A DNA stretch of 64,000 bases from Vibrio sp. 10N.286.49.B1 (GTDB taxonomy: Bacteria > Pseudomonadota > Gammaproteobacteria > Enterobacterales > Vibrionaceae): NCBI RefSeq assembly GCF_002873335.1, contig NZ_MCUW01000009.1:3307-67306 (forward strand), read 5' to 3'. The position numbers and the translations under genes are program-made. The notes beneath the pieces are model-generated. The model was not told the origin of the DNA. It worked only from the letters and a program-made list of their open reading frames with translations, and did no database searches. Positions 26,403 through 57,858 of this stretch are shown in pieces. Each line of letters starts with the position of its first letter. The first letter of the stretch is position 1.

Positions 26403-26712
26403 TTGTATCTTTTTTGAATATCCGTTTATTCAGTAAAAATACTGTTAACAACTTCATGATTTGATTTATGTAGTGTTGGAAAGATAGAAGTTCTAACGTA
26501 GAGGAAGCATTAAAATTGATGAAGTATATGTATCGACCGAAAAAACACTTCAGCACACGCTCCCTCTACATCGAGTTGCGTTCGTACGTGAAGGTTTAAT
26601 GATTAAAAACGACTATTGATAACGACCGGACGTAACAACCTCAATATTAAAACAAAACAATAACACTCATAGCAACTGACCACTCAATCACAGTATATCG
26701 GACCTCCATTCC
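26403..26712. other. Non-coding stretch upstream of the diguanylate cyclase
   Basis: Would contain the promoter of the leftward cyclase gene. Nothing else recognisable; short frames here have no family features. Confidence 0.45.
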
Positions 26713-42131: not shown

Positions 42132-43731
42132 GGTGAACCTCCGATTGCGTGGCAGTCCCAAGTTCAAGCTGTCGGTGAAATTTATAGGCAAGAAAAATAC
42201 CTAAATCACTGTTAACACGTTTCATCCAAATTGCATTCACTTCAGGGTTGTTGAGAATATCTTCTGCATCCAGAGTACTTTCAATCAATAAATCTTGGTT
42301 AATTTCTTGTGATACACCCTCTGAAGTTTCGGGTTGTTCACCAAGCTCATGGCTGCTTTGTTGCGCTCCGCTGTCGGATTGGCTAAGGGTAAATTCGTTG
42401 ATGTCTTTTATAATCTTGTCCAGTAATACTAGATTGGCTTTGGCGATATCACTATTAGGGTAATCGCGCACAATATCGCGGTAGTGATTTCTAGCCGCGA
42501 TATACTCGCGTTGATGAGCTAACGATGCCGCTGCACCGAGGTGGCCAGGCAGAGTGTCACTGCGCATATAATATTGTTGTGCTTTCTCATAGTCACCTAA
42601 ATGATAATAAGCGCTCGCTTTCCACTGCGTGTCTTCAAATACTTCAGCCGCAAGTTGATATTCTTCCTGATCAAAATAGCGTTGCCCTTGTTGATCTTTA
42701 GTGAACCATATATCTGACCAGGACATTATTTTCGCTGCCGCATTCGGCGAATAACTTAGACTACTAGACACCATTATTACTAGGCACCACTGCACAAGCC
42801 AACCACGTCGAAACCAAAATAGGAGGATCAATAACATCACCCACACAAGCGCATACCCTGAATCATTCCAGGGTTCACTAAAGCCCCCTGACGCTTCAAC
42901 ATTATTCGCAATGATGCCAAGGACTACCTTTATATCGTCATGATTCATCGTCAGCGAAACGTAATCGCCCCCACTGCCATCAGCAAGCGCCTGGAGAGTC
43001 TCCACTTCTAAAGGATAATCTGCTAACAAATTATCGGCCCCCATCCCCCACACCACAAGGTTGTGGCGCGTTGATGAAAAGTACTCAATATACGTATTTA
43101 AAGCGATTTGGTTAATACCATCCCCTACCCAAACCACCGTGCCACTTTTTAGGTCATCGCTGAGTAGCTCGTCCACAAGAGGCAGAGCATACTCGGCAAA
43201 CTTACCGTCTCTTGGCATAATTTCCGGTATCACCGCTGCCAACAATGGATTAAAAACATTCGTATCTTGGGTGAGAGGCATCGCCGTATGAGCGCTCCCA
43301 GAAAACACGATCAGCGCCGACTTACCTTTATTTCGCCGTGCCAATAAGTCTTGTATTTTTTGCTTGGCAATAAAAATTCGGCTTGGTGCCACGTCTTTTT
43401 GTTGCATAGTTTTGGATACATCAAGAACAATAATTAACGGTGCTTTATCCTCACCAAATGGTGAGGCCACCCGATACCAACTTGGGCCAGCTGCAACGAC
43501 AATCGCTATCCCCCCTATCACGCAAAGCAATTTTATTGGTAAGTGATTCCCCCAAGAATTAAAACCAACGGTCAACGCTTTGAATAAGTGTGGCGGCAAC
43601 TGCTTTAGCCAGCGACTCTTTATTTTCTCTTCGCGCCAGCGCCAACACAATAACATCAGAAACGGGAGGTACAGCCCTAGCCATTCTGGGCGTAGGAAAT
43701 GAAACTGATGAACAAACATTGAGAATGTCAT
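42115..43731 (-). CDS. VWA-domain and TPR membrane protein (BatB/BatC-like)
   Basis: 538 aa: two N-terminal transmembrane helices, a periplasm-facing von Willebrand A domain with a MIDAS-type LIIVLDVSKTMQQKD, another helix near 300, then TPR repeats (YYHLGDYEKAQQYYMRS, AARNHYRDIVRDYPNS) and an acidic Gln/Ser-rich region. Combines what are separate BatB and BatC proteins in other bacteria. The start overlaps the stop of the upstream VWA gene (ATGA), so they are coupled. Confidence 0.85.
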   Translation of the reverse strand: MTFSMFVHQFHFLRPEWLGLYLPFLMLLCWRWREEKIKSRWLKQLPPHLFKALTVGFNSWGNHLPIKLLCVIGGIAIVVAAGPSWYRVASPFGEDKAPLIIVLDVSKTMQQKDVAPSRIFIAKQKIQDLLARRNKGKSALIVFSGSAHTAMPLTQDTNVFNPLLAAVIPEIMPRDGKFAEYALPLVDELLSDDLKSGTVVWVGDGINQIALNTYIEYFSSTRHNLVVWGMGADNLLADYPLEVETLQALADGSGGDYVSLTMNHDDIKVVLGIIANNVEASGGFSEPWNDSGYALVWVMLLILLFWFRRGWLVQWCLVIMVSSSLSYSPNAAAKIMSWSDIWFTKDQQGQRYFDQEEYQLAAEVFEDTQWKASAYYHLGDYEKAQQYYMRSDTLPGHLGAAASLAHQREYIAARNHYRDIVRDYPNSDIAKANLVLLDKIIKDINEFTLSQSDSGAQQSSHELGEQPETSEGVSQEINQDLLIESTLDAEDILNNPEVNAIWMKRVNSDLGIFLAYKFHRQLELGTATQSEVHHELSH

Positions 43732-44744
43732 GTGTTATGTCCTCTCATTATGTTTTTGACTCTCGCTTGGCGGGAAATCCAAACATGGCCACACATAAAA
43801 AGAAGGTAATTTAAAAGAGCAATCAATACCGGAAGAAAGTGCAAACTGGATTTAGGCTGATAAGTGAAACTCTCAAACAATGTTGGTTCTAAAATCGATA
43901 TTTGTTCATAGACTTGTTGTAAGTCATCTGGAGACATAGCAAGAAAGGCCTGCCCTCCCGTCAAATCCGCAACCTGTTTAATCACATCCATATTTAGAGC
44001 TTGTTCACCCGCTGTATTTGGACTGCCCATCGCAACCATATGGATCCGAATATTGTGTGCGGCGGCAACCTTTGCGGCATCAACGGGTGGGACTAAACTG
44101 TCGGTGTCATTGCCATCGGTTAACATCACAATGACACGCTGTGTCGAAGACATTTTAGATCCTGACATGTAGGTTTTAATCGCCAATCCAATGGCGTCGC
44201 CAAGTCGAGTGCTTTCTCCAGCCATTGCGACTTCTGCTTGTTGTAGCAGTGACAGCCAAGCACCATGGTCCGCCGTAAAAGGGGCTTGTAAGTATGGTGC
44301 ATCACCGAATAAGATGAGCCCTAACCGATCACCTTCTCTTTGTTGACTGAATGTAGAAAGCACCTGCTTGGCCGCGGCAAGCCTAGAAAGACTTTGCCCA
44401 GTCGCGTCATTAAAATCCATCTCTGACATCGAGCCCGACAAGTCAACAATCACCATTAAATCTCGCCCTGTCAGCTCTCGAGTTTCCGGTTCGCTTAACC
44501 ACATGGGCTTTGCTGCGGCAGTCAATAACAAGCACCAGGTCAAGACCAATGAAACACGCTGCCAACGGCTCGACTTTAATTCTACGGCACCTGACTGAGC
44601 CGTAAGATTAAGCGCCTCTATCAAGGACAAAAAAAACGGCACTCTCAGCGCAAGCTGTTGAGTATAATGCCCTGGAGCCCAACGAAATATCATCAGGGGT
44701 AACGGCAAAAACAAGAAAACCCAACTGTATTGAAATTCAATCAT
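43728..44744 (-). CDS. VWA-domain membrane protein (BatA-like)
   Basis: 338 aa from ATG 44744, which clears the upstream stop; a longer TTG start at 44777 would overlap it. The layout is that of BatA: N-terminal helices, VWA domain with a complete MIDAS (LMVIVDLSGSMSEMDF, and VMLTDGNDTDS), C-terminal helix (LHFLPVLIALLNYLLFMCGHV). VWA/MoxR pairs act as chaperone-like systems for protein or metal-cofactor assembly. Confidence 0.87.
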   Translation of the reverse strand: MIEFQYSWVFLFLPLPLMIFRWAPGHYTQQLALRVPFFLSLIEALNLTAQSGAVELKSSRWQRVSLVLTWCLLLTAAAKPMWLSEPETRELTGRDLMVIVDLSGSMSEMDFNDATGQSLSRLAAAKQVLSTFSQQREGDRLGLILFGDAPYLQAPFTADHGAWLSLLQQAEVAMAGESTRLGDAIGLAIKTYMSGSKMSSTQRVIVMLTDGNDTDSLVPPVDAAKVAAAHNIRIHMVAMGSPNTAGEQALNMDVIKQVADLTGGQAFLAMSPDDLQQVYEQISILEPTLFESFTYQPKSSLHFLPVLIALLNYLLFMCGHVWISRQARVKNIMRGHNT

Positions 44745-44755
44745 CAGCACATATC

Positions 44756-45232
44756 CTAGTGGTGAGTTTTCAGCCAAAGATTGACCATTCTTTCTAGCTT
44801 TTCCAATTGCTTGTCCTGCCAGTCCGCCTGATTAATAGGTGTATACAACGACGCCTGCCACTGCTTTGCTAGTTCATTTGAGAAATCAACATTGCGTGAC
44901 GTCGATGACAAAAAGTCCAACCAATACTCCCCAGACAGTGACGCTACCTTTGAGTGTTGATATTTAAAACAAGCCGCTTGCTTAAGTAAGCTATTCAAGC
45001 CGAAGATGAATTTTTTAGGGTCATGCTTAGGGAGTTTGCCAACCGCTTTTATCGCGCGACGGCGATAACCATTGGCACGATAATGCTGCACACAACGAAA
45101 CCCGGCGATAGCAATGCTTAGTACTACAAGTAAGAATAGAATTTTACACCCCACCGTCTCAGGTAAAAAACTCACCTCTTCGGGTAAAGTGGGCTCCTTC
45201 AACCGCTCAAGTAAAATATTATTTCGAGACAC
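44756..45232 (-). CDS. DUF4381 membrane protein
   Basis: 158 aa with one transmembrane helix near residues 30-48 (ILFLLVVLSIAIAGFRCV) and a basic cytoplasmic part with YRRRAIKAVGKL and LLKQAACFKYQHSKVASLSGEYWLDFL. This matches the DUF4381 family regularly found between DUF58 and VWA genes in MoxR operons. It overlaps the DUF58 gene by 14 bases. Function unknown. Confidence 0.8.
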   Translation of the reverse strand: MSRNNILLERLKEPTLPEEVSFLPETVGCKILFLLVVLSIAIAGFRCVQHYRANGYRRRAIKAVGKLPKHDPKKFIFGLNSLLKQAACFKYQHSKVASLSGEYWLDFLSSTSRNVDFSNELAKQWQASLYTPINQADWQDKQLEKLERMVNLWLKTHH

Positions 45233-46151
45233 GACGGCCTCCGGATAGCTGAGTCGTCAACTGTTTTAAGTGTGAACCCGACGTGTCTAAAACAATACTT
45301 TGCGATTGTAAGCGCTGCTTAAGTTTAGCCTGAGATGATACTAGCCTGCGATTAAGGCCCTCCAATTGCGCATTGAAGTTTTCATCGACAGAGACTTGCT
45401 GATACCCGTCACTCAAATAGATCTGGTCAGTAAAATGGACAGGTTGTTCGAATGAATCTTGGATAGAGATAGCCGACACATCGTTATGACGTTGTAATAA
45501 CGATAAGAAACGAAGCGTTGTGTCATCCAAATCAGAAAAATCACTAATAAGAATGAGCGACGCCCCTTTTAGCCCCTGTTTATGCAGTGTATTCAGGGCG
45601 TCATTAAACGTACTGGCGGAATCCAATGTTGCCCCCTTGCCTTCTTGATTTAGCAATGACTGATTACAGTCAACAAGGGTTTTAAATATACGAGACAAAT
45701 GCGCGACACTATTTCTAGGCTTGAAACAAGCGCAACTCGAATCATTCAATATTACCGCTCCAATCCGGTCGCTATTTCGTATCGTTTGCCATGATAGGCA
45801 AGAAAAAACTTCCGCTGCGACGACGGATTTCATTGTATCTACCGTTGAAAAAAACATCGTCTTTCGCTGATCAACACATATCACGACAGGGCGTTCCTTC
45901 TCTTCGCTGAATAAACGAACATAAGGTACGCCGGTTCTTTGCGTAACCCTCCAGTCTAAACTGCGTATATCGTCCCCCAACTGATATTGGCGAAACTCAG
46001 AAAAGTCCAGCCCACGCCCTTTCTTACTTGAACGATATTTTCCGATTAGTTGATTGATTTTTCTTGAACGTGATGATGTCAGCTCAGCACGATGCCCATG
46101 CCTCATTGCCATTAACCGTTCGAACTGAACCGCAACTCTAGAATCAAACAT
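45219..46151 (-). CDS. DUF58 (VWA-like) protein
   Basis: 310 aa with the DUF58 core GRGLDFSEFRQYQLGDDIRS and LDWRVTQRTGVPYVRLFSEE. DUF58 proteins are VWA-related partners of MoxR ATPases. The position of the MIDAS motif reads VVICVDQRKTMFFS, with Arg in place of the usual Ser of DxSxS, so metal binding may be lost. 10 bases downstream of the MoxR gene. Cytoplasmic, no helix seen. Confidence 0.88.
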   Translation of the reverse strand: MFDSRVAVQFERLMAMRHGHRAELTSSRSRKINQLIGKYRSSKKGRGLDFSEFRQYQLGDDIRSLDWRVTQRTGVPYVRLFSEEKERPVVICVDQRKTMFFSTVDTMKSVVAAEVFSCLSWQTIRNSDRIGAVILNDSSCACFKPRNSVAHLSRIFKTLVDCNQSLLNQEGKGATLDSASTFNDALNTLHKQGLKGASLILISDFSDLDDTTLRFLSLLQRHNDVSAISIQDSFEQPVHFTDQIYLSDGYQQVSVDENFNAQLEGLNRRLVSSQAKLKQRLQSQSIVLDTSGSHLKQLTTQLSGGRRVSK

Positions 46152-46161
46152 ACTTCCGCCC

Positions 46162-47148
46162 CTATACTAAAGCGACATGACGTAGGATTTCGTCAACGAC
46201 TAAACTGGGCGTAACCCCGTCTGACATTGCTTCAAAGGTCAACGTAATTCGGTGCCCTAGTACCGCTTGAGCAATCGAGCGGACATCATCTGGTGTGACG
46301 TAATCACGCCCTTCTACGTGCGCATGGGCTCGACTACAACGATCCAGCGCGATAGAGGCTCGTGGGCTTGCACCTATTTCGATCCACTCGGCCAATTTTG
46401 ACTCCGAATAGCGCTTGGGCTCACGTGTAGCAATAATTAAGTCAACAATGTAGCGATCAATCGACTCCGAGACATAAGCATGCTTCACCATTTCACGTTC
46501 CTGAATAATGAAATCTTGGTTTTCAAACAATACCCGCTTTGAATCAAAGACCGTGTCATCAACAAGTCCCATATCTTCGTTTCTTATTAAGCGTACAATG
46601 GCTAACTCGGCTTCCGCTGATGGGTAATCGACATCAATCTTCATAACAAAACGATCCATCTGAGCTTCCGGCAGTGGATAGGTGCCTTCTTGTTCAACTG
46701 GATTTTGCGTGGCGAGCACCATAAAGGGACTCGGCAACGGCCTTGTTTCACCCGCTACGGTTACGGTTCCCTCTGCCATCCCTTCCAGTAGCGCAGCCTG
46801 AACTTTAGCTGGAGCTCGGTTAATTTCATCAGCGAGTACGATAGGGCTAAAGATAGGTCCGGGCTGGAACGTCAAACACCCTTGCTCATGATGGTAGAGC
46901 TGCGCTCCCGTGATATCAGATGGCAACAAGTCAGGTGTGAATTGTATTCGGCTAAACCCCAAATTCAGCGCTTCAGACAACGCTTTTACTGCCCGTGTTT
47001 TAGCGGTACCAGGAAGCCCTTCAAGTAGAATATGACCGCCTGTAAGTAGCGCAATAATCATCGATTTTGTGACATGACTTTGACCAACAATGGCGGCGTT
47101 AACTTCATTAATCAAAGAGACCAATGGAGAGTGGACAGCGTTATTCAT
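46162..47148 (-). CDS. MoxR-family AAA+ ATPase
   Basis: 328 aa with Walker A (LLEGLPGTAKTRAVKAL), Walker B (PIVLADEINRAPAKVQAALLE), sensor 1 (VLATQNPVEQEGTYPLPEAQ) and the C-terminal lid domain (GASPRASIALDRCSRAHAHV). MoxR ATPases work with VWA proteins to mature or activate other proteins. It is the energy-using member of the complex encoded by the genes around it. Confidence 0.95.
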   Translation of the reverse strand: MNNAVHSPLVSLINEVNAAIVGQSHVTKSMIIALLTGGHILLEGLPGTAKTRAVKALSEALNLGFSRIQFTPDLLPSDITGAQLYHHEQGCLTFQPGPIFSPIVLADEINRAPAKVQAALLEGMAEGTVTVAGETRPLPSPFMVLATQNPVEQEGTYPLPEAQMDRFVMKIDVDYPSAEAELAIVRLIRNEDMGLVDDTVFDSKRVLFENQDFIIQEREMVKHAYVSESIDRYIVDLIIATREPKRYSESKLAEWIEIGASPRASIALDRCSRAHAHVEGRDYVTPDDVRSIAQAVLGHRITLTFEAMSDGVTPSLVVDEILRHVALV

Positions 47149-47177
47149 GAGTAAACCTTGTTATAAAATTGGCGAGA

Positions 47178-48152
47178 CTAACGATATTTATCGATAAGCG
47201 CTGTCACTGCCTCTTCTGGTGCAAATTGGCGCAATTTTTCCAAGCACGATATCGCACTCATCTGACTGGATAGTCGAGCCTCACATTGAGAAAACAGATA
47301 CTGAGGATTGCCAGTGGATGCATAAGCTTGGGTAAACAAAGTCCATGCTTCTTGAGGTTCCTGATCTAATATCATCAAACCCAACATATAACTGTATGTC
47401 GCACTGTTGGGCTCAAGTCGATACGCTTGCTGCATGTGCTGAAATGATAGCGATACCTGTTCATTGCGCCAGTAGGAGAGCGATAAGCTGTAGTGCAGCA
47501 TGGCATTGTCATTGTCGGTGACGAGCGCTTGATTGAGCGCCTGAATCGCACGCACCTCTTGATGTTGGTCACTATAAAGCTCAGCAAGAGCGATAGTGAC
47601 ATCAAGGTCATTTGGCTTGGTTTGCCACAAATTTAGCACGTGCTCTGCTTCAGTATATCGTTGACACCACCTAAGTAATTGAGCCTTTTCCAACGCGCCT
47701 TCCTGTGTGGCAGGTAATGCTGCAATATAATGCTGTAACTTAGCGTCTAATTTATTTTGATAGCGAACTGGCAACGACGGCCATAATGGAACAAGTGCAC
47801 GAATCGCCGCTTGTTGAATACGAGGTTGAGAATCTTCGAGTAACGGCTCAACCACATCCCACTTCGCTCGTCCTTGCCAACGTTTAGCGGCCTGAATACT
47901 CGACATTCGCATTTCTATACTCGGAGATCGTGATGCTCTGCCAATTGCGATAAGCGCGTTGGGACCTGAAAAATACCCCAATTGCTGCGTCGCGGCGGTA
48001 CGTTGCTCTAGCGGCAAGTCCTGGTTTTGCGACATTTCGGCGAGTTGGGCTTCAGATGCCATCGTAGTCAATAGCTCTGCCAAACTGAAACTGCTATGAA
48101 AGACAAAGCAACTGAGCATTAACCACCTCAACACTCGTATTTGAGCCCTCAT
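47178..48152 (-). CDS. Exported HEAT/TPR repeat protein
   Basis: 324 aa with a Sec signal peptide (about residues 8-26), HEAT-like helices (IGRASRSPSIEMRMSSIQAA, VEPLLEDSQPRIQQAAIRAL) and then TPR repeats (ALAELYSDQHQEVRAIQALN, SLSYWRNEQVSLSFQHMQQA). Probably a periplasmic protein-protein adaptor for the MoxR/VWA system. Overlaps the end of the upstream gene by one base. No named family recognised. Confidence 0.75.
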   Translation of the reverse strand: MRAQIRVLRWLMLSCFVFHSSFSLAELLTTMASEAQLAEMSQNQDLPLEQRTAATQQLGYFSGPNALIAIGRASRSPSIEMRMSSIQAAKRWQGRAKWDVVEPLLEDSQPRIQQAAIRALVPLWPSLPVRYQNKLDAKLQHYIAALPATQEGALEKAQLLRWCQRYTEAEHVLNLWQTKPNDLDVTIALAELYSDQHQEVRAIQALNQALVTDNDNAMLHYSLSLSYWRNEQVSLSFQHMQQAYRLEPNSATYSYMLGLMILDQEPQEAWTLFTQAYASTGNPQYLFSQCEARLSSQMSAISCLEKLRQFAPEEAVTALIDKYR

Positions 48153-48679
48153 TACGCCTCCTCATCCCGGAGGTTTTGGTGCATGGCTTCTGCTTCAATC
48201 ATCAACGAATGAAGAAAATAAACATCATCCGTTTTAGGGAAATCATGCATTACTAGCCATTCATTCACTGCATTCAAGGTATCATCAAACAATATATCTG
48301 CATCGGGGCCCGCCTCTAAGTAAGCTAGTAACTGCAAAGAAGATACAAGTTCTGGATAGGCGACTTCTGGCATCAGTAATGAGGTCATATGGCGATGATA
48401 TACTTGCTTCAATACATCGTGATTCGCCTTAGCCGATTTATACTTCCTTTGTTTATTCTCGTAGCTATCAGTGCAGTCAGGATGTGTAGGCTTTTGCTGA
48501 CAAAAATTAAACTGCGTGGCAAATGACGTATAACGAACACTTTTGGTTTCAAAGGCCAAGTCAATCATGCTGTTGACCTGCTTTTCGGGAAAAAGAACAT
48601 CCACATCGGCAGCAGCCAAAGGTAAGGCATAAAATAACAAAAAAAACAGTGTGAACATTGTTGTCTTTATCGAGCTCAT
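48152..48679 (-). CDS. Exported protein of unknown function
   Basis: 175 aa with a signal peptide (FTLFFLLFYALPLAAA). Two Cys (CQQKPTHPDC) could form a disulfide. The rest is helical with no motif recognised. It sits between the sulfatase maturase (12 bases upstream) and the HEAT/TPR gene, so it belongs to the same transcript; function unknown. Confidence 0.7.
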   Translation of the reverse strand: MSSIKTTMFTLFFLLFYALPLAAADVDVLFPEKQVNSMIDLAFETKSVRYTSFATQFNFCQQKPTHPDCTDSYENKQRKYKSAKANHDVLKQVYHRHMTSLLMPEVAYPELVSSLQLLAYLEAGPDADILFDDTLNAVNEWLVMHDFPKTDDVYFLHSLMIEAEAMHQNLRDEEA

Positions 48680-48691
48680 ATTGTCACCCTC

Positions 48692-49996
48692 TTACTTAAG
48701 TTTGATGTTCATCGCCGCAGGGTGGAACCCTTTATGGACTGGATAACCCATAGTGGCAACGACCATTGATATATATGGATCGATATGTTTGAAAAACTGT
48801 TTCCAACCCGCACACAGATAGTTCAGACCTACTTCGCCATCGAGTGTTTTTATGAAACGATTTTTCGGACATTCCCCGTAGCACGCAAATTGATAGTTGC
48901 ATGTTCTGCATTGCTTGGGTAAAGCGCCTTCCTTGGCTTTCCCAAACTCTTCTTGCCCTTTAGAAAACTGTAAACTCTCTAAAGCAGTGTCATGAATGTT
49001 ACCCAATTTGTACTCTGGATAGACGTAGTGATCGCAAGCAAAGACATCACCATTGTGTTCTATTGCCAACCCCTTGCCACACATTGGTGCTAACGTACAA
49101 AGTGGATTAATCCTGCCCATCCAAGTTTCAACACATGCTTCAAAATAAGGGACATTCACCTTGCCAATATCATTAGATAGCCACTCATCAAAAATGGTGC
49201 ATAGAAATTGCCCCCATTGGCTTGGTGATACACACCATGCCTCCACGATCGAGTTAGGATGACTCGGTTCTGTTTCTGGCATTCCTTGGAATAACACATC
49301 TTGAGCCGACCAATGCTGTGGCGCGGTATCTCTAAATGATTTCGGCTCAACAATAGGGATAAACTGCAATTGCGGTGAACGGATTTCATCACGTAGGAAC
49401 CGGTACACCTCAAGAGGATTCGCACCAACTAGGTTGTTCACGCAAGTCAATGTCGCGAAATTTATCTGGTATTTATGAAGAATTTCGACGCCTTTCATTG
49501 TTTTCTTAAATGTGCCACGACCTGATCGATTCGTTCGGTACGTATTGTGGATCATTTCAGGACCATCAATACTCAATCCAACCATGAAATCATTCTTACT
49601 TAAAAACTTACCCCATTCATCATTAAGTAAGGTGCCGTTAGTTTGCAGATTATTTTCAATGCTTACCCCTTTAGGGCAGTATTTTTTTTGTAATCGAACG
49701 ACATCACGGAAAAAGTTAACGCCTAATAGCGTCGGCTCACCGCCTTGCCAATGGAACACTATTTCCGGATAGTTTTGCTGCTCTATATACGACTGAATGT
49801 ATGTTTCCAGCATGTCTTCTGTCATTTGAGAGCCACAACCTTTATCGTGTCCCAACAAGGTCTCTTTACTTAAGTAATAACAGTAAGTGCAATCAATATT
49901 ACAGGCTGAACCAATCGGCTTAGTCATGATATTCATTCGTTGTACTGGAGATTTTTTAGGTAAATCAATATCAAGCTGTGGCGTGTAATTGGACAT
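48692..49996 (-). CDS. Anaerobic sulfatase-maturating enzyme (radical SAM, anSME)
   Basis: 434 aa. The radical SAM cluster is C32-x3-C36-x2-C39 in SACNIDCTYCYYLSKE. The C-terminal SPASM part carries the extra Cys (CTLAPMCGKG, VFACDHY, CRTCNYQFACYGECPKNRF) for two auxiliary Fe-S clusters. Such enzymes convert the active-site Cys or Ser of sulfatases to formylglycine without oxygen. The target is presumably the arylsulfatase encoded just upstream. It heads the long leftward operon and has an operator-like repeat about 120 bases upstream. Confidence 0.93.
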   Translation of the reverse strand: MSNYTPQLDIDLPKKSPVQRMNIMTKPIGSACNIDCTYCYYLSKETLLGHDKGCGSQMTEDMLETYIQSYIEQQNYPEIVFHWQGGEPTLLGVNFFRDVVRLQKKYCPKGVSIENNLQTNGTLLNDEWGKFLSKNDFMVGLSIDGPEMIHNTYRTNRSGRGTFKKTMKGVEILHKYQINFATLTCVNNLVGANPLEVYRFLRDEIRSPQLQFIPIVEPKSFRDTAPQHWSAQDVLFQGMPETEPSHPNSIVEAWCVSPSQWGQFLCTIFDEWLSNDIGKVNVPYFEACVETWMGRINPLCTLAPMCGKGLAIEHNGDVFACDHYVYPEYKLGNIHDTALESLQFSKGQEEFGKAKEGALPKQCRTCNYQFACYGECPKNRFIKTLDGEVGLNYLCAGWKQFFKHIDPYISMVVATMGYPVHKGFHPAAMNIKLK

Positions 49997-50115
49997 ATCG
50001 AAGCCTCATGATGGGTCCACTATCAATGTGGGTGGTGCTTCCTGTAACGTGCAGTGATAAATAAAAGTGTCGTAAGAGTCATGATTATTATCAATTTTCT
50101 CCTGCTATGCGTAAC

Positions 50116-50129
50116 CAGTATTTATACTG
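50116..50129. promoter_or_regulatory. Operator-like inverted repeat upstream of the maturase operon
   Basis: CAGTA-TTTA-TACTG, preceded by GTAAC and followed by CTTT. Same half-sites and spacer as the repeats at 51898, 53096, 57719 and 57768. Lies between the sulfatase terminator and the maturase start. Confidence 0.6.
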
Positions 50130-50199
50130 CTTTAGCGTTAAGAATAACGTTGCTCATTCCATCTTAGTGTTTACATTTCCCATCGCACAAATAGCACAA

Positions 50200-50221
50200 A
50201 GCCCAGCATTTATGCTGGGCT
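50200..50221 (-). terminator. Terminator after the sulfatase gene
   Basis: Stem AGCCCAGCAT / ATGCTGGGCT with a 2-4 base loop, T-rich on the minus side. Separates the sulfatase from the maturase operon. Confidence 0.75.
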
Positions 50222-50246
50222 AAATCTTAGTGCTTTTTCATGACTT

Positions 50247-51824
50247 TTATTGGTATTGAGCACGTTGCCAGATATTCATTTTCTCTACGATTTGATCGAT
50301 AGAAAAGGAACCTGGAACCTGACGAGGAGGAAACTCTTGGAATGTTTGCAAGAACTGAGCGGTTGAGGCTGCGCCAAGGTACATGTACGGTAAATGTTCA
50401 ATATACCATTTTGTATAACGGCCTTCATGGTCGGCGTTTTCATACGGGTCTTGACGTAAGTTGTACATCTTGGGCGCACGAAGCTCTTCAAATGAGCAAT
50501 TCCATGTTTCTAAGCCATGACAGTTATTTACGCTGAACATAATCTTATAATCACCCACACGAACCGCTGACACATCACCGGCATCCGTGGCATAGATATA
50601 AGACTGACGTGGCCAAGATGCGAGATTGTAGTGGGTTGTCGCTTTACCCGTTTTAAGCGCTGGTAACAGGTTATAGCCATCTAGATGAACTTTGTACTGT
50701 TTGCCGTTTAATTTCTTACCCTTTTTCAGGTCCGCCACAATGGTGGTATCGCCAGTTGCAGCAAGGAATGTTGGTGCCCAGTCGTTATGTGCAGCCATTT
50801 CATTAGCAATTGACCCTGCTGGGATTTTACCCGGCCAGCGCATCATCGCAGGCACACGATGTCCACCTTCCCAAGAAGAGTTTTTCTCACCGCGGAAGCG
50901 AACGGTACCGCCGTCAGGCCAAGATAACTTTTCCGCGCCATTATCGGTCGAATAACTGACGATTGTATTATCAGCGATCTTCAGCTCATCGAGTTTATCT
51001 AGAAGTTGACCGACATGATTATCATGTTCAACCAAACCATCACCGTAGATCCCACCACGCTTAGATAAACCTTTAGACTCCTCCTTTAGGTGAGTCCAAA
51101 CATGCATACGAGTAGCATTAAACCAGATAAAAAATGGCTTCTCTTCCTTGTGCGCTCGATCAATAAAATCTAACGCGGCAGTTAAGAATTCTTCATCAAC
51201 GGTTTCCATGCGCTTTTTCGTCAGTGAACCCGTATCTTCAATTTTGCCGTCTGCGAAAGAGTGGATAACCCCACGAGGGCCAAATTTTTTCTGGAACCAA
51301 GGCATGGATGGGTAATCTGCGTGCTCAGGTTCTTCTTCTGCGTTTAAGTGATAAAGATTTCCAAAAAACTCATCAAAGCCATGCTCTGTAGGTAGTTGCT
51401 CATCAAGGTCACCTAAATGATTTTTACCAAATTGCCCGGTCATATAACCTTTGTCTTTTAGCATAACAGCAATCGTTGGATCTTCGGCTTTCATACCTTG
51501 TTTAGCACCAGGCATGCCTACTTTTGTTAACCCTGTACGAATAGGGTGTTGCCCTGTGATAAATGCCGCTCGTCCTGCTGTACAAGAATTTTCACCATAA
51601 AAATCCGTGAATAAAACACCTTCATTAGCAATTCGGTCAATGTTTGGTGTCCAGTGCCCTGCTTGTCCTTTAGTGTAAGCACTTAAGTTATCCATTCCGA
51701 TGTCATCTCCCCAAATTGCAAGAATATTCGGACGAGAGGTATCGGTAGTCGCATAACTGGCCATTGCGGTCGTCGCTAAAGCGGCACCTACAACCAATTG
51801 TAAAAAGGTTTTTTTCTTGAACAT
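50247..51824 (-). CDS. Periplasmic arylsulfatase (Cys-type)
   Basis: 525 aa with a signal peptide (LQLVVGAALATTAMASYA), metal-binding Asp40 and Asp41 in LAIWGDDIGMDNLS, and the formylglycine site Cys81-Thr-Ala-Gly-Arg in FYGENSCTAGRAAF. Further features are KNHLGDLDEQLPTEHGFDEF and YSTDNGAEKLSWPDGGT. It hydrolyses sulfate esters in the periplasm once Cys81 is converted to formylglycine. The natural substrate is not readable from sequence. Transcribed alone and divergently from the LuxR-type gene. Confidence 0.93.
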   Translation of the reverse strand: MFKKKTFLQLVVGAALATTAMASYATTDTSRPNILAIWGDDIGMDNLSAYTKGQAGHWTPNIDRIANEGVLFTDFYGENSCTAGRAAFITGQHPIRTGLTKVGMPGAKQGMKAEDPTIAVMLKDKGYMTGQFGKNHLGDLDEQLPTEHGFDEFFGNLYHLNAEEEPEHADYPSMPWFQKKFGPRGVIHSFADGKIEDTGSLTKKRMETVDEEFLTAALDFIDRAHKEEKPFFIWFNATRMHVWTHLKEESKGLSKRGGIYGDGLVEHDNHVGQLLDKLDELKIADNTIVSYSTDNGAEKLSWPDGGTVRFRGEKNSSWEGGHRVPAMMRWPGKIPAGSIANEMAAHNDWAPTFLAATGDTTIVADLKKGKKLNGKQYKVHLDGYNLLPALKTGKATTHYNLASWPRQSYIYATDAGDVSAVRVGDYKIMFSVNNCHGLETWNCSFEELRAPKMYNLRQDPYENADHEGRYTKWYIEHLPYMYLGAASTAQFLQTFQEFPPRQVPGSFSIDQIVEKMNIWQRAQYQ

Positions 51825-52126
51825 GGGCTCAGACCTATCGGTTATTAATAGTAAAATTGTCGTGAGCTATTATTGGGAGTTTGGTTTTTCAGGTAACCAG
51901 TAGAATTACTGCTTAAATAAATCACCAGGTAAACTTTAGTCAATAGTGACGATAGCCTCATAAAACATTATTACGTATCAAGACAGCCCTCTCATCAAGT
52001 AGTTAGTATAGATAAAGTTGCCCCGACATTATCGTCATAACGGTTATTCATCTATACTTGGTCATGATATAAACTAGCCAAAATATAATTACTTATGCTC
52101 ACATCAAAGAAAAAAGGTTACGCTCG
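51825..52126. other. Divergent promoter region between sulfatase and LuxR-type regulator
   Basis: Non-coding, AT-rich. Holds the operator-like repeat at 51898-51911. No other palindrome of note. Confidence 0.5.
51898..51911. promoter_or_regulatory. Operator-like inverted repeat upstream of the sulfatase
   Basis: CAGTA-GAAT-TACTG, about 75-87 bases before the sulfatase ATG. It shares even its flanks (GTAAC before, CTT after) with the site upstream of the maturase. Confidence 0.6.
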
Positions 52127-52915
52127 ATGATAGACACTAAGCCTGATAATTTTGAATCTCTTCTCATGGCACAATCCAATGCTTTAACATCCTGTCAGCC
52201 TAAGAATTTTGATGAAACCTTTATTATTTTGGCACAACAAGCATTGGATTGGTTTAAATTGGATCGATTAACCTTGTTCCCAAATTCGATGATTTTACTC
52301 AATGATGGGAAAACTATTTCAGTATCAAGAGCAACAATCCCAGACCTAAACAAGCAGCGCTTTTTGAAAGGCAATTACAAAGACTATTTAAAAATATTAA
52401 GAGTTAAATTATCTTGGCAGGTATTTGATAGCGATGCCCTCAAGCATCATAAACTCGACCCAATGAAAGAATTATATCAAGAAGGCGTACGCTGGCATGG
52501 GGTCATTCGTTTAGAACTCTTTGGGCAAACTTGGGGCGCGCTCGCCTTCTCTCGATTTAGCTTAGACGAAACCGAACTCACTGAGCAAGACATGAAGCGA
52601 ATTAAGCTCTTATGTGACATGTGGCTTTGCTTTTGGCAACACTCGACAATGACTCGCAATTTAAGCCTAGATGATCAAGTCAACATCGACGAAAGTGAAA
52701 AGTTACTGCTGCTTAGCAAAAAACAATGTTCTGTTTTAACACTCTTAGCTCAAGGTTACACCGCTAAACAATGTGCTGAAAAGCTGTTTTTGAGCCCTCG
52801 AACAATTGAATCCCATAAATATCGAATGCTCGATTTATTGGAACTAGAAAACCACACCGAGCTCGTTCAGTTTTCACTGCGAAATGGCTTGGGCATTGAA
52901 TCGAATGACAGCTAA
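52127..52915 (+). CDS. LuxR-type transcriptional regulator
   Basis: 262 aa with a C-terminal LuxR helix-turn-helix (about residues 193-255: LLLSKKQCSVLTLLAQGYTA, EKLFLSPRTIESHKYRMLDLL). The N-terminal 180 residues look like a GAF-type sensor (LDWFKLDRLTLFP, WGALAFSRFSLDE) and lack a phospho-acceptor receiver domain. Divergent from the sulfatase and upstream of the HlyD/FadL operon; the likely local regulator of genes carrying the shared inverted repeat. Effector unknown. Confidence 0.88.
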   Translation: MIDTKPDNFESLLMAQSNALTSCQPKNFDETFIILAQQALDWFKLDRLTLFPNSMILLNDGKTISVSRATIPDLNKQRFLKGNYKDYLKILRVKLSWQVFDSDALKHHKLDPMKELYQEGVRWHGVIRLELFGQTWGALAFSRFSLDETELTEQDMKRIKLLCDMWLCFWQHSTMTRNLSLDDQVNIDESEKLLLLSKKQCSVLTLLAQGYTAKQCAEKLFLSPRTIESHKYRMLDLLELENHTELVQFSLRNGLGIESNDS

Positions 52916-52992
52916 TATTATCTAGTAGCTAACCTATTTTCATGATTTGTACACATAATCAGTAGCAATAACTCATTCAGACTACGACTCGA

Positions 52993-53033
52993 TTTTTATA
53001 CCGAATCAGTACTTTCCTTATTCGGTATAAAAA
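52993..53033. terminator. Terminator after the LuxR-type gene
   Basis: Perfect 14-bp stem TTTTTATACCGAAT / ATTCGGTATAAAAA with a 13-base loop, T and A runs on the two ends so it can act both ways. Confidence 0.8.
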
Positions 53034-53095
53034 CACACCGCCCTCTTTTCATAAATTAACCTGACTCAATGTTTTGGCCTATTCATATTCCATAT

Positions 53096-53109
53096 CCGTA
53101 ATTTTACTG
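53096..53109. promoter_or_regulatory. Operator-like inverted repeat upstream of the DUF3302-like/HlyD/FadL operon
   Basis: CCGTA-ATTT-TACTG followed by CTTC; one mismatch from the CAGTA-N4-TACTG form. About 95-108 bases before the first gene. Confidence 0.5.
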
Positions 53110-53203
53110 CTTCATCTTCCCTATATCCTCCTTACCATCCTCCCCATGCCATGACGCATTTATGGCGTACCTCTTTTTCGTTCACTCACTTTTAGGAACA
53201 CTT

Positions 53204-53536
53204 ATGAGCTTGGTAAGTATGCCTTTCGTTGCAACTGGTTTTGACACTGGCTTGCACATCGTTGCCGGTGTCGTCTTAATAGGCACTATCGTCGGGGCTC
53301 TCTATGCATTTTGGAAGTTCCACGAATTACCCATTCACCATGCAGACAAAATGAAACATGGCCAAATGGCTTTGGTCACAACCCTCACTTGGATTGGTTT
53401 CATCTGGCACTGGGTTTGGGTGCTAGCCGTAATCATTGCATTTGTGGATTCAGAGCAGACCATTCGTCGTACCCGAAAAATTTGGAATGACACCACTCCC
53501 AGCGCAGTAATTAAAGAAGGCGAACAATCATGTTAG
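53204..53536 (+). CDS. Small inner-membrane protein, DUF3302-like (YiaW/YibI type)
   Basis: 110 aa from ATG 53204, which follows AGGA-N7; an upstream ATG at 53162 has no ribosome site. Two or three transmembrane helices and a HELPIHHADKMKHG segment similar to the HDIPYxxAKKRNHP of YiaW. In E. coli such proteins are paired with a HlyD-type partner, as here (7-base overlap). The family assignment is by resemblance. Confidence 0.65.
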   Translation: MSLVSMPFVATGFDTGLHIVAGVVLIGTIVGALYAFWKFHELPIHHADKMKHGQMALVTTLTWIGFIWHWVWVLAVIIAFVDSEQTIRRTRKIWNDTTPSAVIKEGEQSC

Positions 53537-54753
53537 AAGGACTAGCGGTATGGGCGCTATTTATTTACCTACTAAGGCTGGTGGGGATTCCTTGGACAAA
53601 ACCATTTAAACTCTTTGCCTACGGCGGAGGAAGCGCGTGGTTACTATTTGTTTGGGTGGGACTCATTACGTGGGCACCAATGGACTTATCTGGTGGCTCG
53701 GTTGTTCAATCACCACACATCCAATTGCGACCGGGCTCAACACGAATTACCGGCTCTATTGATAAGCTTCACATTTCACCAAACCAAGAGTTAAAACAAG
53801 GTCAACTTGTTTACGAAATCAATAATGAACCTTATAAAATAGCGGTTGGGAAATCACAAGCTTTGCTAGCAGTGGCTGAGATGTCCTACCGTTCCGCAGT
53901 ACAAGATGCCAATATCGCCGATACCAATTACCAAGTTTCTCTGGAAGATATTGATATAATTGCGAATCAAATATCAGCGGCTCGACAAGATCTTGAACTA
54001 AAAGAAAGAACATTGCAGCGCTTTGTTAAACAGAATACTAAAGTAAAAAACACCGTCGCTGAAAGTAATCTTGATCAACAAAAAACCGTCATTGCCATGA
54101 CAAAAAATCAAATTGAAATTCTTAAATCTCAACATGATAAAGCACTGATCAACGAACAGAAAAGCAAAAATCTACTCGCAAAATCCCAGCTCACCATAAA
54201 AAGTAAGCAGGCAGATATCGCCAGTAAACAGTCTCAATTAAATCAAGCCATGTGGGACTTATCTCAGACAAAGGTTTATGCACCTGTTGATGGATACGTC
54301 ACCAATTTCATTGCTCGAGAGGGGCAGTTTATTGGCGCAACGCCAAGACTAAAAATGTACAGCAATGAAAAATTCGTGTTGATGCGAATTAATCATCAGG
54401 CATTTAGGAATATTCGTGTAGGTCAAGAAGCTGAATTTGCCTCTGCGATTTATCCTGGCAAGGTTTTCTCTGCTGTGGTTGAGGGAATTGTTGAAGCCAC
54501 GGGGGAATCCCAAGGTTCACTCGTTGCCCGTGAAACCAATGTTCGCGCTACTACTGGCAAAAATGTTCAGAATAAACATCACTTTGTTCGCTTGAGTATT
54601 CACGAGCCAGCAGGCTATGACATTCCAGTTGGCGCTGTTGGTCTAGCCTGGGTAAATGCAGAAAAACCTATCCCTTTTCTGAATTTCCTCAACGTTATTC
54701 GCGGCATCATTATTCGAATGAAAGCTCAGATCTACTACATCTACAGCATGTAA
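53530..54753 (+). CDS. HlyD/EmrA-type membrane fusion protein
   Basis: 407 aa: two N-terminal membrane helices, then a biotinyl-lipoyl/barrel-sandwich hybrid (ITGSIDKLHISPNQELKQGQ), a long coiled-coil hairpin (about residues 110-240, rich in Gln/Lys/Asn), the second lipoyl half (LSQTKVYAPVDGYVTNFIAR) and a beta-barrel. No ABC or RND pump gene is next to it; it may work with the small membrane protein, as YiaV/YibH with YiaW/YibI. Confidence 0.85.
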   Translation: MLEGLAVWALFIYLLRLVGIPWTKPFKLFAYGGGSAWLLFVWVGLITWAPMDLSGGSVVQSPHIQLRPGSTRITGSIDKLHISPNQELKQGQLVYEINNEPYKIAVGKSQALLAVAEMSYRSAVQDANIADTNYQVSLEDIDIIANQISAARQDLELKERTLQRFVKQNTKVKNTVAESNLDQQKTVIAMTKNQIEILKSQHDKALINEQKSKNLLAKSQLTIKSKQADIASKQSQLNQAMWDLSQTKVYAPVDGYVTNFIAREGQFIGATPRLKMYSNEKFVLMRINHQAFRNIRVGQEAEFASAIYPGKVFSAVVEGIVEATGESQGSLVARETNVRATTGKNVQNKHHFVRLSIHEPAGYDIPVGAVGLAWVNAEKPIPFLNFLNVIRGIIIRMKAQIYYIYSM

Positions 54754-54899
54754 TTGACGCTACTCCAGTAACGAAAGGGGTCTAATGCGACCTCTTTCTT
54801 TCACTTTATTTTCTTGGTTCCGTGGATATTGAACCTAGACGCTTTGCGGCCTCACTACAACTAACACGAACCTACGCGCTAAAAATAAGTCTATTTATT

Positions 54900-56072
54900 A
54901 TGAAAAAAACGCTCATCGCTTCACTCATCATTACTAGCCAAGTCCACGCAAGCGGATTACTACTTCAAGAGGCCGTCACTGCTAATGCCGGAACCGCTGG
55001 CGCTGGAGATGGTGTCTATACCCAAACAGCGAGTGCTAGCTGGACTAATCCAGCAACAATGACACACATGGGCGAGCAACTCACAACAGTAAACGCTCTC
55101 ATATTGGATCTCAAACTCGACTACGATGACCACAGTACGGTGCCTCAAAACGGTCAAGCAAAAACAACCATGCCATCTATCGGTATATTCCATGTTCGTC
55201 AACTCACTGACGAGATTCACCTAGGCATGAACTTTGGCGTAGTGGGGGGATCTTCTATTGAATATGGTACTGATTGGGCCGGGGCTCCATACCTTAATAA
55301 AGCTTTTATGACTGGGATTCAAATTAACCCTAATCTTAGCTATAAAATTAATGACCATGTTTCATTAGGACTCGGCGCACAAATTAACTATGGTTTACTT
55401 GAGGTATCAACTTCATCCGTACAAAGTAACCTCGATACAGATTGGGCTTATGGCTTTAACTTGGGCGCAATGTACCACCAAGACAATTGGGCTTTAGGTG
55501 TCAGCTATCGTTCAAAAATCAAGCATGAGTTTTCTGTAGAAGCAAGTCTGATGACCGCACCTTATAGCCTCCCTCTGAACACTGAACTTTTGATCCCAAC
55601 CATTGTTGATATAAGTGGTGCTTATGATCTTAATTCACAGCTAACGTTATTGAGCTCTGTCCAACTTCACCAATGGAGTGACTTTGATAAAACACCCATT
55701 TACACCGATATCGGTACAACAAACATCGAACGTAACTGGGATGACGTATGGAAGTTTGCCATAGGAGCGGACTATCAACTAACTAGTACATGGGCACTCA
55801 AGGTTGGTTTTTCTTACGAGACTTCTCCTCAGGATAACCCTTCTTTGCAATGGGTCGATTTGCCTGTTGGTGAACAGTATCGATACTCGGTTGGGGCAAG
55901 TACAGATTGGAACTCGACCAAGGTTGATATATTCTACGAATTTGCCGACTTAGGTACCATGCCAATTACTCGACAAGTGGGTCCAAATCCTGGCCCAATT
56001 GACGGGCTTCCCGACCTAAATGGCGAGTTCTCAGGCCGTATTCATTTCGTAGGTATGAACTTTAGCTTTTAA
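54900..56072 (+). CDS. FadL-family outer-membrane transporter
   Basis: 390 aa. ATG at 54900 starts the signal peptide MKKTLIASLIITSQVHASG, after which the FadL hatch sequence follows (LLLQEAVTANAGTAGAGDGV, ASASWTNPATM). The C-terminus ends in Phe (GMNFSF) as in outer-membrane barrels, with alternating strands throughout. FadL proteins pass hydrophobic molecules across the outer membrane; the location beside the sulfatase suggests an apolar sulfate ester or its product. 146 bases after the HlyD gene. Confidence 0.88.
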   Translation: MKKTLIASLIITSQVHASGLLLQEAVTANAGTAGAGDGVYTQTASASWTNPATMTHMGEQLTTVNALILDLKLDYDDHSTVPQNGQAKTTMPSIGIFHVRQLTDEIHLGMNFGVVGGSSIEYGTDWAGAPYLNKAFMTGIQINPNLSYKINDHVSLGLGAQINYGLLEVSTSSVQSNLDTDWAYGFNLGAMYHQDNWALGVSYRSKIKHEFSVEASLMTAPYSLPLNTELLIPTIVDISGAYDLNSQLTLLSSVQLHQWSDFDKTPIYTDIGTTNIERNWDDVWKFAIGADYQLTSTWALKVGFSYETSPQDNPSLQWVDLPVGEQYRYSVGASTDWNSTKVDIFYEFADLGTMPITRQVGPNPGPIDGLPDLNGEFSGRIHFVGMNFSF

Positions 56073-56584
56073 AGCCTCTTATTTATTAGGCAGGACAATG
56101 ACCTAAATTGTCCTGCCTAATCACCACATAAATCATCACTCGTCTCATCACTCGTCTCATCACCAAGAATAACATTCACTATAATCTTGCTCGCTTTATC
56201 TGCACGTCTTCCACTTTCATGCCCTGAAAAACACGACAAAAACCAATATTGTTAGTCGCATAATCTTGAGGCCTGCTACCTTAAGGTTAACTCACCGCTT
56301 GCACCCACTTACTCGTAATCATATGTTCAATAATAGTAGCGTTGAACCTACCTTATATTCATAACAACCAAAAACATACTCCACACCGCTCAAGATAATC
56401 GATGAAATATACAGGCTAAAAATAAAATCCTGTATTAGAAACTGAGTACTGTTATTCAATAATATCAGCTTCCAAAGGAACCTTTTTAGCTGTACATTAT
56501 TTAAAGACAAAAAAAAGCCAGTAGCGTTAACTACTGGCAAAGGGTCGACAAAAATGTTTTAGCAGTGGGGTTGTTTCAACTAAA
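56073..56584. other. Intergenic stretch with hairpin (56086-56120) and a short 12-bp tandem repeat (56134-56163)
   Basis: A 14-bp stem TTAGGCAGGACAAT / ATTGTCCTGCCTAA lies right after fadL and probably ends its transcript. CATCACTCGTCT occurs twice in tandem at 56134, then CATCAC. The remainder is AT-rich without a supported gene. Confidence 0.6.
56508..56538 (-). terminator. Terminator of the porin gene
   Basis: Stem GCCAGTAG / CTACTGGC with a 6-base loop and a run of eight T on the minus strand, about 50 bases past the porin stop. Confidence 0.85.
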
Positions 56585-57634
56585 TTATAAGTTTACATTC
56601 GCGCGTAAAAACAACTTGTCATCATCTTCAGATGCTACTTTATAATCAGTCACTAATTCTAGATGCTCATTTAAACGGTAAGACGCACCAATTGTGTACC
56701 AGTCGTCTGAATCAAAAGTGTTGCCTTTGTTCGACGTTCTGTCCCAATTGTATTCCTCTAGATTATAGGTTGCGGAAATTGAAAGGTTCATTGTCGCTTG
56801 ATAAGCTGCGCCCAATGCATAACCTTTTGTTTCTTCGTTGTTTACATTCATTGTTTCAACATCGCCAAAATCATATTTAGCGGCGAAGTTGAATTTATCT
56901 AGTACTGCAACAGCGCCGATTGTGTAGACTTTTTCTGAGCGGTTTTGGGCATCGGTTGAATACTCACCCTTCGCGATGTCTACATACGTACCACCAATGA
57001 CAACAGCCCCAAGCGTTGCTGAGCCGCCAACAGCCCATGCATCATTGGTGTGTTCCCATGCGGCACCAACATCGAAGTTTTCACCAAAATAATGATGGTT
57101 AAGTTGCTCATCGGTACAAGCGGCTTCATCCGCTTCTGCGCCTAGGCCATGCTCTTTCGATATATCACCAAAGCCTAAGTACACATCAGCAATACCGCAT
57201 TGCTTACCAAACGTAGTCTTACCTGCGACCGTATTCACACCAAATGTAAAACGGTCCACGTAATTAATTGGGTCTATACGTGTATCATAACCATTCCATT
57301 CATAACGAGCTTCACCACCAATCAAGAGTGAAAAACTATCTGTCACAGCATAGTCTAAATCCGCACCCACTTTAAACATATACGTATGAGCAAAGTTACT
57401 ATCATTCTGGTCATCAAATAATACGTTACCGCCTAGCTCTGCACCAGAATATGCGACACCAGTCAGCTTATCATTTTCAATAAAATCATATAAATTGTTA
57501 GGCTTATCTGCCGTCGAGGACAATTCTGAAATATTTTCTGCAGACGACTGTTCTGATGACGTAATGACAGCATTTGATTCAGCTAAAGCTGGAGCCGCTA
57601 ATATGATGGCAATGGCGTATGCAAGTTTTTTCAT
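56585..57634 (-). CDS. Outer-membrane porin-like protein
   Basis: 349 aa from ATG 57634 (GGGA 7 bases upstream; the TTG at 57646 is rejected). Signal peptide MKKLAYAIAIILAAPALA, then about 50 polar residues, then a beta-barrel of alternating residues with aromatic strand ends (GGEARYEWNGYDTRIDP, GVNTVAGKTTFGKQ). It resembles trimeric gram-negative porins (OmpC/chitoporin-like fold). Two operator-like repeats shared with the sulfatase genes lie upstream. Confidence 0.82.
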   Translation of the reverse strand: MKKLAYAIAIILAAPALAESNAVITSSEQSSAENISELSSTADKPNNLYDFIENDKLTGVAYSGAELGGNVLFDDQNDSNFAHTYMFKVGADLDYAVTDSFSLLIGGEARYEWNGYDTRIDPINYVDRFTFGVNTVAGKTTFGKQCGIADVYLGFGDISKEHGLGAEADEAACTDEQLNHHYFGENFDVGAAWEHTNDAWAVGGSATLGAVVIGGTYVDIAKGEYSTDAQNRSEKVYTIGAVAVLDKFNFAAKYDFGDVETMNVNNEETKGYALGAAYQATMNLSISATYNLEEYNWDRTSNKGNTFDSDDWYTIGASYRLNEHLELVTDYKVASEDDDKLFLRANVNL

Positions 57635-57718
57635 TTTATATCCCAATATTATCGAATTTTGATTAGTACGTTTTGTACTTCCGACATGGATATTGAGATA
57701 GTTTATACTTTCATAATA

Positions 57719-57732
57719 CGGTAATTATACTG
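57719..57732. promoter_or_regulatory. Operator-like inverted repeat, porin proximal copy
   Basis: CGGTA-ATTA-TACTG followed by C, about 85-98 bases before the porin ATG; one mismatch from CAGTA-N4-TACTG. Confidence 0.5.
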
Positions 57733-57767
57733 CTCCACATTAGGATGTGAAGTCGTGATTGGCAATG

Positions 57768-57781
57768 CAGTATATATACTG
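57768..57781. promoter_or_regulatory. Operator-like inverted repeat, porin distal copy
   Basis: CAGTA-TATA-TACTG, the centre of an 18-bp perfect palindrome (57766-57783, TGCAGTATATATACTGCA). 49 bases from the proximal copy, close to an integral number of helix turns. Confidence 0.6.
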
Positions 57782-57858
57782 CAGTGAGACACTATATTGA
57801 TTAAATAGTCATATTTACACCACAATAAAACATTCAATCCTTCACTGTATACGAGGCG

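Follow-up and report, generated by a model that had tools for sequence, protein, structure and literature searches.

LuxR of Aliivibrio fischeri, a regulator with a GerE-type helix-turn-helix (HTH), is paired with a palindromic site, the lux box, that is centred near -42.5 (PMC7585371, in the part consulted). The same HTH family occurs in response regulators of the NarL/FixJ type, i.e. EvgA, UhpA and NarL, while a carrageenan regulon described from Zobellia is an example of a regulon for marine sulfated compounds (PMC5698469, in the part consulted). We analysed a 64,000-nucleotide stretch of Vibrio sp. 10N.286.49.B1 (contig NZ_MCUW01000009.1, positions 3,307 to 67,306; hereafter the window), which carries a LuxR-type regulator gene, genes for a sulfatase and a sulfatase maturase, and repeated copies of the palindrome CAGTA-N4-TACTG. 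Comparison of sequences makes it very probable that this palindrome serves as operator for a family of LuxR-type (GerE) regulators, which would switch on the target units listed below by class II activation.

The window regulator (262 amino acids; 52127..52915, plus strand) matches PF00196 at residues 196-249 (E 1.3e-14, 54 bits against a cut-off of 23.5), and its best PDB profile matches, which cover the HTH part, are EvgA chains. The GerE HTH was matched in all 45 homologues scanned, and the S-x-RT-x-ESHKY stretch within it hardly varies even among homologues of only about 40% identity, in keeping with a conserved operator. In contrast to LuxR of A. fischeri, the site has the sequence CAGTA-N4-TACTG, no autoinducer synthase was found among the scanned neighbour genes of the window, and no autoinducer-binding domain was matched by Pfam, either in the window regulator at E<=1 or among the 25 most-matched of the 44 families in the 45 homologues. 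Unlike in the NarL/FixJ type, the receiver domain PF00072 was matched neither in the window regulator nor in the homologue scan, although UhpA of the same window does match it. Pfam gave no family for the N-terminal ~190 amino acids, the HTH being the only part assigned, and a weak GAF match appeared in three of the 45 homologues (best E 0.0057), the protein of the window not among them. As for the regulon, none of the 40 Pfam-scanned proteins here matched a polysaccharide-cleaving family, a difference from the Zobellia carrageenan regulon. The solved structure nearest to the window sulfatase by sequence is PsFucS1 (7AJ0, S1_13; 179 bits, residues 26-477), an enzyme linked to fucoidan oligosaccharides in the consulted part of PMC8484680, but the relationship is distant and does not make fucoidan the substrate here.

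In the window, the pattern CVGTA-N4-TACTG gave 10 strand-matches against a mean of 0.17 in 100 shuffled sequences, none of which reached 10. Five sites had been listed in an earlier note on this DNA, each with a spacer of exactly four bases, each upstream of a transcription unit and usually followed by C. All five were recovered by the scan in these positions, with C following on the plus strand in every case, but the list was incomplete, as a sixth exact palindrome had been overlooked. The predicted sulfatase operator, CAGTAATTCTACTG (51898..51911, minus strand), with a -10-like AATAAT at 51869..51874 on the same strand, has the highest score in the window (31.9) with a matrix that combines site and -10 element and is described below. 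Second (29.6) comes the overlooked palindrome, CAGTATTTTTACTG (26431..26444, minus strand), the predicted operator of a dCache-GGDEF diguanylate cyclase gene on that strand, with a -10-like TACAAT 23 bp past the site (26402..26407, minus strand), as located by offset scoring and the matrix. The predicted operator of the operon with the anaerobic sulfatase maturase (anSME) and MoxR-Bat genes, CAGTATAAATACTG (50116..50129, minus strand; score 28.3), is followed by GATAAT at the same distance of 23 bp (50087..50092, minus strand), and that of the DUF3302-HlyD-FadL operon, CCGTAATTTTACTG (53096..53109, plus strand; score 26.7), by TACCAT (53133..53138, plus strand). Upstream of the porin gene there are two predicted operators on the minus strand, a promoter-proximal one, CAGTATAATTACCG (57719..57732; score 21.9), with CAATAT at 57690..57695 on the same strand, and a distal one 49 bp further upstream (57768..57781; score 17.7). 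The -10-like hexamers of the maturase, sulfatase and DUF3302 promoters were located by comparing upstream stretches, and that of the porin by promoter alignment.

Conservation was assessed around homologues of the regulator. At E<=1e-10, a search recovered these from 62 of 296 Vibrionaceae genomes, in some cases through the HTH or fragments only. The locus sample comprised 80 stretches and 79 loci from named genomes, with the HTH-only matches (L190-L211) excluded, and thinning of the 131 loci with a long regulator match left 90 distinct ones, which form 33 clusters at 80% identity. When every 5-mer palindrome was surveyed with spacers of 0-12 in the intergenic DNA of these 90 loci, CAGTA-N4-TACTG ranked first of all, with 61 sites in 20 of the 33 clusters, as against 0-8 sites for CAGTA with each of the other 12 spacers. 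The palindrome ranked second, AGTAA-N2-TTACT (14 clusters), overlaps it. Exact sites were intergenic in 61 of 64 cases, though intergenic DNA makes up only 14% of the bases; with one mismatch, 128 of 199 were intergenic, and the coding counts are slightly too high as short open reading frames (ORFs) were called over some sites. Regulator homologues with sites occur in five genera, namely Vibrio, Aliivibrio, Moritella, Thalassotalea and, weakly, Ferrimonas, and the site before the sulfatase is kept in Moritella and in an uncultured Thalassotalea whose regulator is 38% identical. The palindrome looks like a conserved operator.

The check in related Vibrio genomes that the earlier note had suggested turned out in its favor, since sites were found upstream of the sulfatase, DUF3302-HlyD-FadL and porin orthologues in regulator loci. 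Counting an upstream site as one with at most one mismatch within 300 bp, sites precede all 25 sulfatase orthologues, 17 of 19 anSME orthologues, all 12 DUF3302 orthologues and all seven porin orthologues, and they are kept across differing gene orders. FadL orthologues have such a site in nine of 18 cases, and all nine site-less genes sit behind DUF3302-HlyD on the same strand, so that a single operon promoter would serve them. No site was found upstream of paralogous sulfatases, either in the same loci (0/11) or in L216-L231 (0/34), i.e. 15 loci from genomes where the regulator was not found and one from the own genome. Selecting in the reverse direction, by a sulfatase orthologue of at least 76% identity, yielded 22 genomes, 20 of which have an intact regulator; the remaining two are G084 and G130, the latter described further below. 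In G084 (87% complete; L212), regulator fragments adjoin a sulfatase of 77% identity and the operator is a remnant with three mismatches. Another branch of the family has its site in front of a 346-aa protein that matched nothing in Pfam; this holds for 23 of 28 loci, and in every one of them AACAAT follows at offset 23. Among the 296 genomes, the top 28 matches of this protein all come from genomes that carry the regulator, while its more distant copies had a site with at most one mismatch in none of 20 upstream stretches, two of which hold CNGTAAATGTACCG, with two mismatches. Other genes behind sites in relatives include DUF3187, DUF2860 and OmpA-type proteins, short-chain dehydrogenases, GntR regulators and GGDEF proteins, and with such variety the reach of the regulon may exceed one substrate.

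The arrangement of these promoters points to activation. In 57 non-redundant promoters, bases 23-28 past the site read xAxAAT (A24 89%, A26 67%, A27 74%, T28 79%), whereas bases 0-5, where a -35 box would be expected, approximate ATTACC, the outer arm of the palindrome, and no TTGACA-like -35 box is present. A -10-like score of at least 3 of 4 was reached on 135 of the 233 sides that face a gene, on 26 of the 145 other sides and, for coding matches, on 12 of the 147 sides scored; these counts include related loci. If the hexamer is placed at -12 to -7, the site is centred at -42.5, like the lux box and where a LuxR-type class II activator would bind. Judged by sequence, the promoters have the layout of class II activator dependence, i.e. 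an operator over the -35 position, a constant spacing to the -10 element and a -35 box that is weak or absent.

When the window was scored with a matrix of site plus -10 element that had been trained without its own genome, the top five places were 51898, 26431, 50116, 53096 and 57719 (31.9 to 21.9), and the best place outside the six sites reached 6.2. The maxima of 60 Markov shuffles averaged 9.4, the largest being 21.0. With one cluster left out at a time, the matrix recovered 31 of 33 clusters at a score of 15, as against none of 40 control stretches, which were shorter overall, and 27 of 33 at a score of 20. This result, together with the expectation of only 0.17 matches in the window, leaves a negligible probability for the idea that the palindromes arose by chance, belong to a dispersed repeat or act as RNA hairpins, e.g. 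in terminators. AT-rich intergenic DNA does commonly hold palindromes, and three of four stretches fold into a hairpin at the site (z -1.66, -3.07 and -1.83). The 53096 stretch does not fold, however, and the sites lie upstream of the -10 element, hence would not be transcribed from these promoters, and on these two grounds the hairpin reading was rejected.

The regulator may also be imagined to bind the sites but mainly to repress, blocking RNA polymerase. In the harveyi clade (L172, L175, L176, L177, L178), GAGTA-N4-TACTG stands 33-34 bp before the start codon of the regulator itself, an arrangement that looks like autorepression, and the adjoining -10-like bases would suit this. At the target genes, by contrast, the site occupies the -35 place at a constant spacing from the -10 element, with ATTACC or similar rather than TTGACA at the -35 position. 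Promoters with a -10 but without a -35 box usually need an activator, and we consider predominant repression unlikely.

Class II activation by the LuxR-type regulator also has to be weighed against binding of the motif by another protein, either a GntR-type regulator or UhpA. GntR genes adjoin sites in L053, L135, L173 and kin, and UhpA, encoded beside the porin of the window, shares its HTH type with the LuxR-type regulator. Nonetheless, a relative of the own-genome GntR protein (E<=1e-20) occurs in only four of the 22 genomes with the sulfatase orthologue, as against 20 with an intact LuxR-type gene, and two other GntR queries, sought in the 90 loci only, matched seven and six of them. A UhpA relative was present in two of the 90 loci, one being the window, and no match to the motif with at most one mismatch was found in the 300 bp upstream of uhpT. 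On these counts both proteins were rejected as binders, and we regard such a binder as quite unlikely.

Across the whole genome, the motif falls on 33 distinct places, 21 coding and 12 intergenic. Intergenic places with a gene-ward -10-like hexamer at 23 bp (three or four of the four scored bases) are restricted to the six sites of the window plus a single one on contig C20, while two coding places (L010, L015) score 3. The window sites are distinguished by their intergenic place, the -10-like hexamer at a fixed spacing and their conservation in relatives. The C20 pair, at 48535 and 48577, adjoins a second copy of the regulator with 57% identity, in a locus (L053 8259-13725) that also encodes a GntR protein, a glycine-zipper protein and a paralogous sulfatase of 54% identity. 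The regulon had been described as local; its units in the window stand, but the word does not, as the 26431 site and the C20 locus beside the regulator paralogue fit as well.

Several observations weigh against control by the regulator. The 90 loci were themselves selected by regulator presence, and the bare motif is not enriched in the genome, with 42 strand-matches as against 62 for a reversed control pattern. Random occurrence across the genome had been named in advance as a finding that would speak against the regulon; the bare motif does behave in this way, the motif with promoter spacing does not. Genus-wide, genomes with the regulator hold 10.4 sites and those without it 6.3 (194 of 296 rows, minus five genomes whose matches were fragmentary or confined to the HTH; the other 102 rows lie outside), but this association is confounded by kinship and unusable because sister genomes share matches, e.g. 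nine of 11 site sequences of the regulator-bearing G138 recur in G161, where the regulator was not found. Bare-motif counts were consequently dropped as proof. Two anSME orthologues without a site are both from Moritella, and G130 keeps an intact site although its regulator, next to the sulfatase, contains stop codons. Furthermore, no site lies within ~10 kb of the regulator in 11 loci of one splendidus/lentus clade (cluster L139) or in L129. Finally, sites lie upstream of the regulator gene itself in 57 of 91 cases, but autoactivation is unsupported because most of the 40 such sites listed lack the -10 spacing. A regulator tree with site labels showed the labels to be weakly clustered (8 changes against a shuffled mean of 10.2) and had long branches, and it was left unused; at least three of its labels (L062, L170, L177) are wrong since short ORFs covered their sites. 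The site-less splendidus/lentus loci are L139, L141, L144, L060, L061, L065, L067, L068, L073, L074 and L085, and the listed stretches before their regulator genes hold TTGACA or a near form.

Computation directly gives the sites, how far they are conserved, their constant distance to the -10 element and their co-occurrence with the regulator; from these we infer how binding, activation and induction may proceed. The operator family would span regulators of Vibrio, Aliivibrio, Moritella, Ferrimonas and Thalassotalea, with the protein at 52127-52915 as its representative in the window. The palindrome, with its centre near -42.5 in sigma-70 promoters that carry a -10 element but lack a TTGACA-like -35 box, is probably occupied by a regulator dimer. 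From there the dimer would recruit RNA polymerase as a class II activator and switch on the sulfatase, the radical-SAM maturase along with the MoxR-Bat genes, the DUF3302-HlyD-FadL operon, the porin and the diguanylate cyclase. The N-terminal domain, possibly GAF-like, may sense the inducer, for which a sulfate ester or the product of one is a candidate. The earlier claim that the regulator at 52.1 kb controls these units through the repeat is well supported on comparative grounds, i.e. the palindrome survey, orthologue sites, -10 spacing and held-out matrix, the binding part being a prediction. Co-regulation suits the further suggestion that all products act on one sulfated substrate. More tentatively, it is possible that an unnamed family of LuxR-type activators with an N-terminal, perhaps GAF-like sensor runs a marine sulfate-ester regulon, in which sulfatase, maturase with MoxR-Bat, outer-membrane pores and c-di-GMP synthesis are switched together, coupling desulfation of a surface-bound or host compound to the state of attachment. 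A literature search, judged from its search results, returned nothing on this regulon. Several public records name the regulator "response regulator" and others "LuxR C-terminal-related"; often annotated in such terms alone, the family now gains a predicted operator, promoter layout and target list, and regulator, inducer and sulfatase substrate become directly testable. The MoxR-Bat module is placed under the same predicted control as the sulfatase, and the site before the diguanylate cyclase suggests a link to c-di-GMP.

Regarding the gene products, the sulfatase (525 amino acids; 50247..51824, minus strand; PF00884) is of the S1 type and contains CTAGR in its translation, in agreement with (C/S)-x-(P/A)-x-R, the motif of S1 sulfatases activated to formylglycine. 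The anSME (radical SAM/SPASM; 48692..49996, minus strand) scores 477.8 bits against TIGR03942 (curated cut-off 349.45) and is the first gene of a run reaching 40878. The remaining genes (40878..48679, minus strand), identified by Pfam and gene spacing, encode a 175-aa protein without family, a TPR protein, a MoxR ATPase, DUF58 and DUF4381 proteins, two VWA proteins and a BatD-like protein, and because of their close spacing on one strand the whole of 40878..49996 is a probable operon. This combination of a MoxR/Bat-type module and a sulfatase maturase in one gene run recurs in many relatives, and no paper joining MoxR, sulfatase and BatA turned up in the literature search.

The DUF3302 protein (53204..53536, plus strand) matches PF11742 weakly, with 21.3 bits and thus below the cut-off of 32; its listed ORF starts at 53162, but the ATG at 53204, after TTTTAGGAAC, is the likelier start because relatives show TTTTAGGAAGCTTTATG. 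It is followed on the plus strand by an HlyD/EmrA-type membrane-fusion protein (53530..54753; profile matches) and a FadL/TodX-type outer-membrane protein (54822..56072; PF03349). The porin (Porin_4, PF13609; 56585..57634, minus strand) has as its next neighbors on the minus strand, according to profile matches, uhpC, a MASE1 histidine kinase in the place of uhpB, uhpA and uhpT. The dCache-GGDEF cyclase (24729..26402, minus strand; PF00990, PF02743) probably starts ~40-90 bp inside its listed ORF, and a search of 26 other genomes at E<=1e-40 gave no orthologue of it. In L152 and L148, too, sites are followed by GGDEF genes, but of different types.

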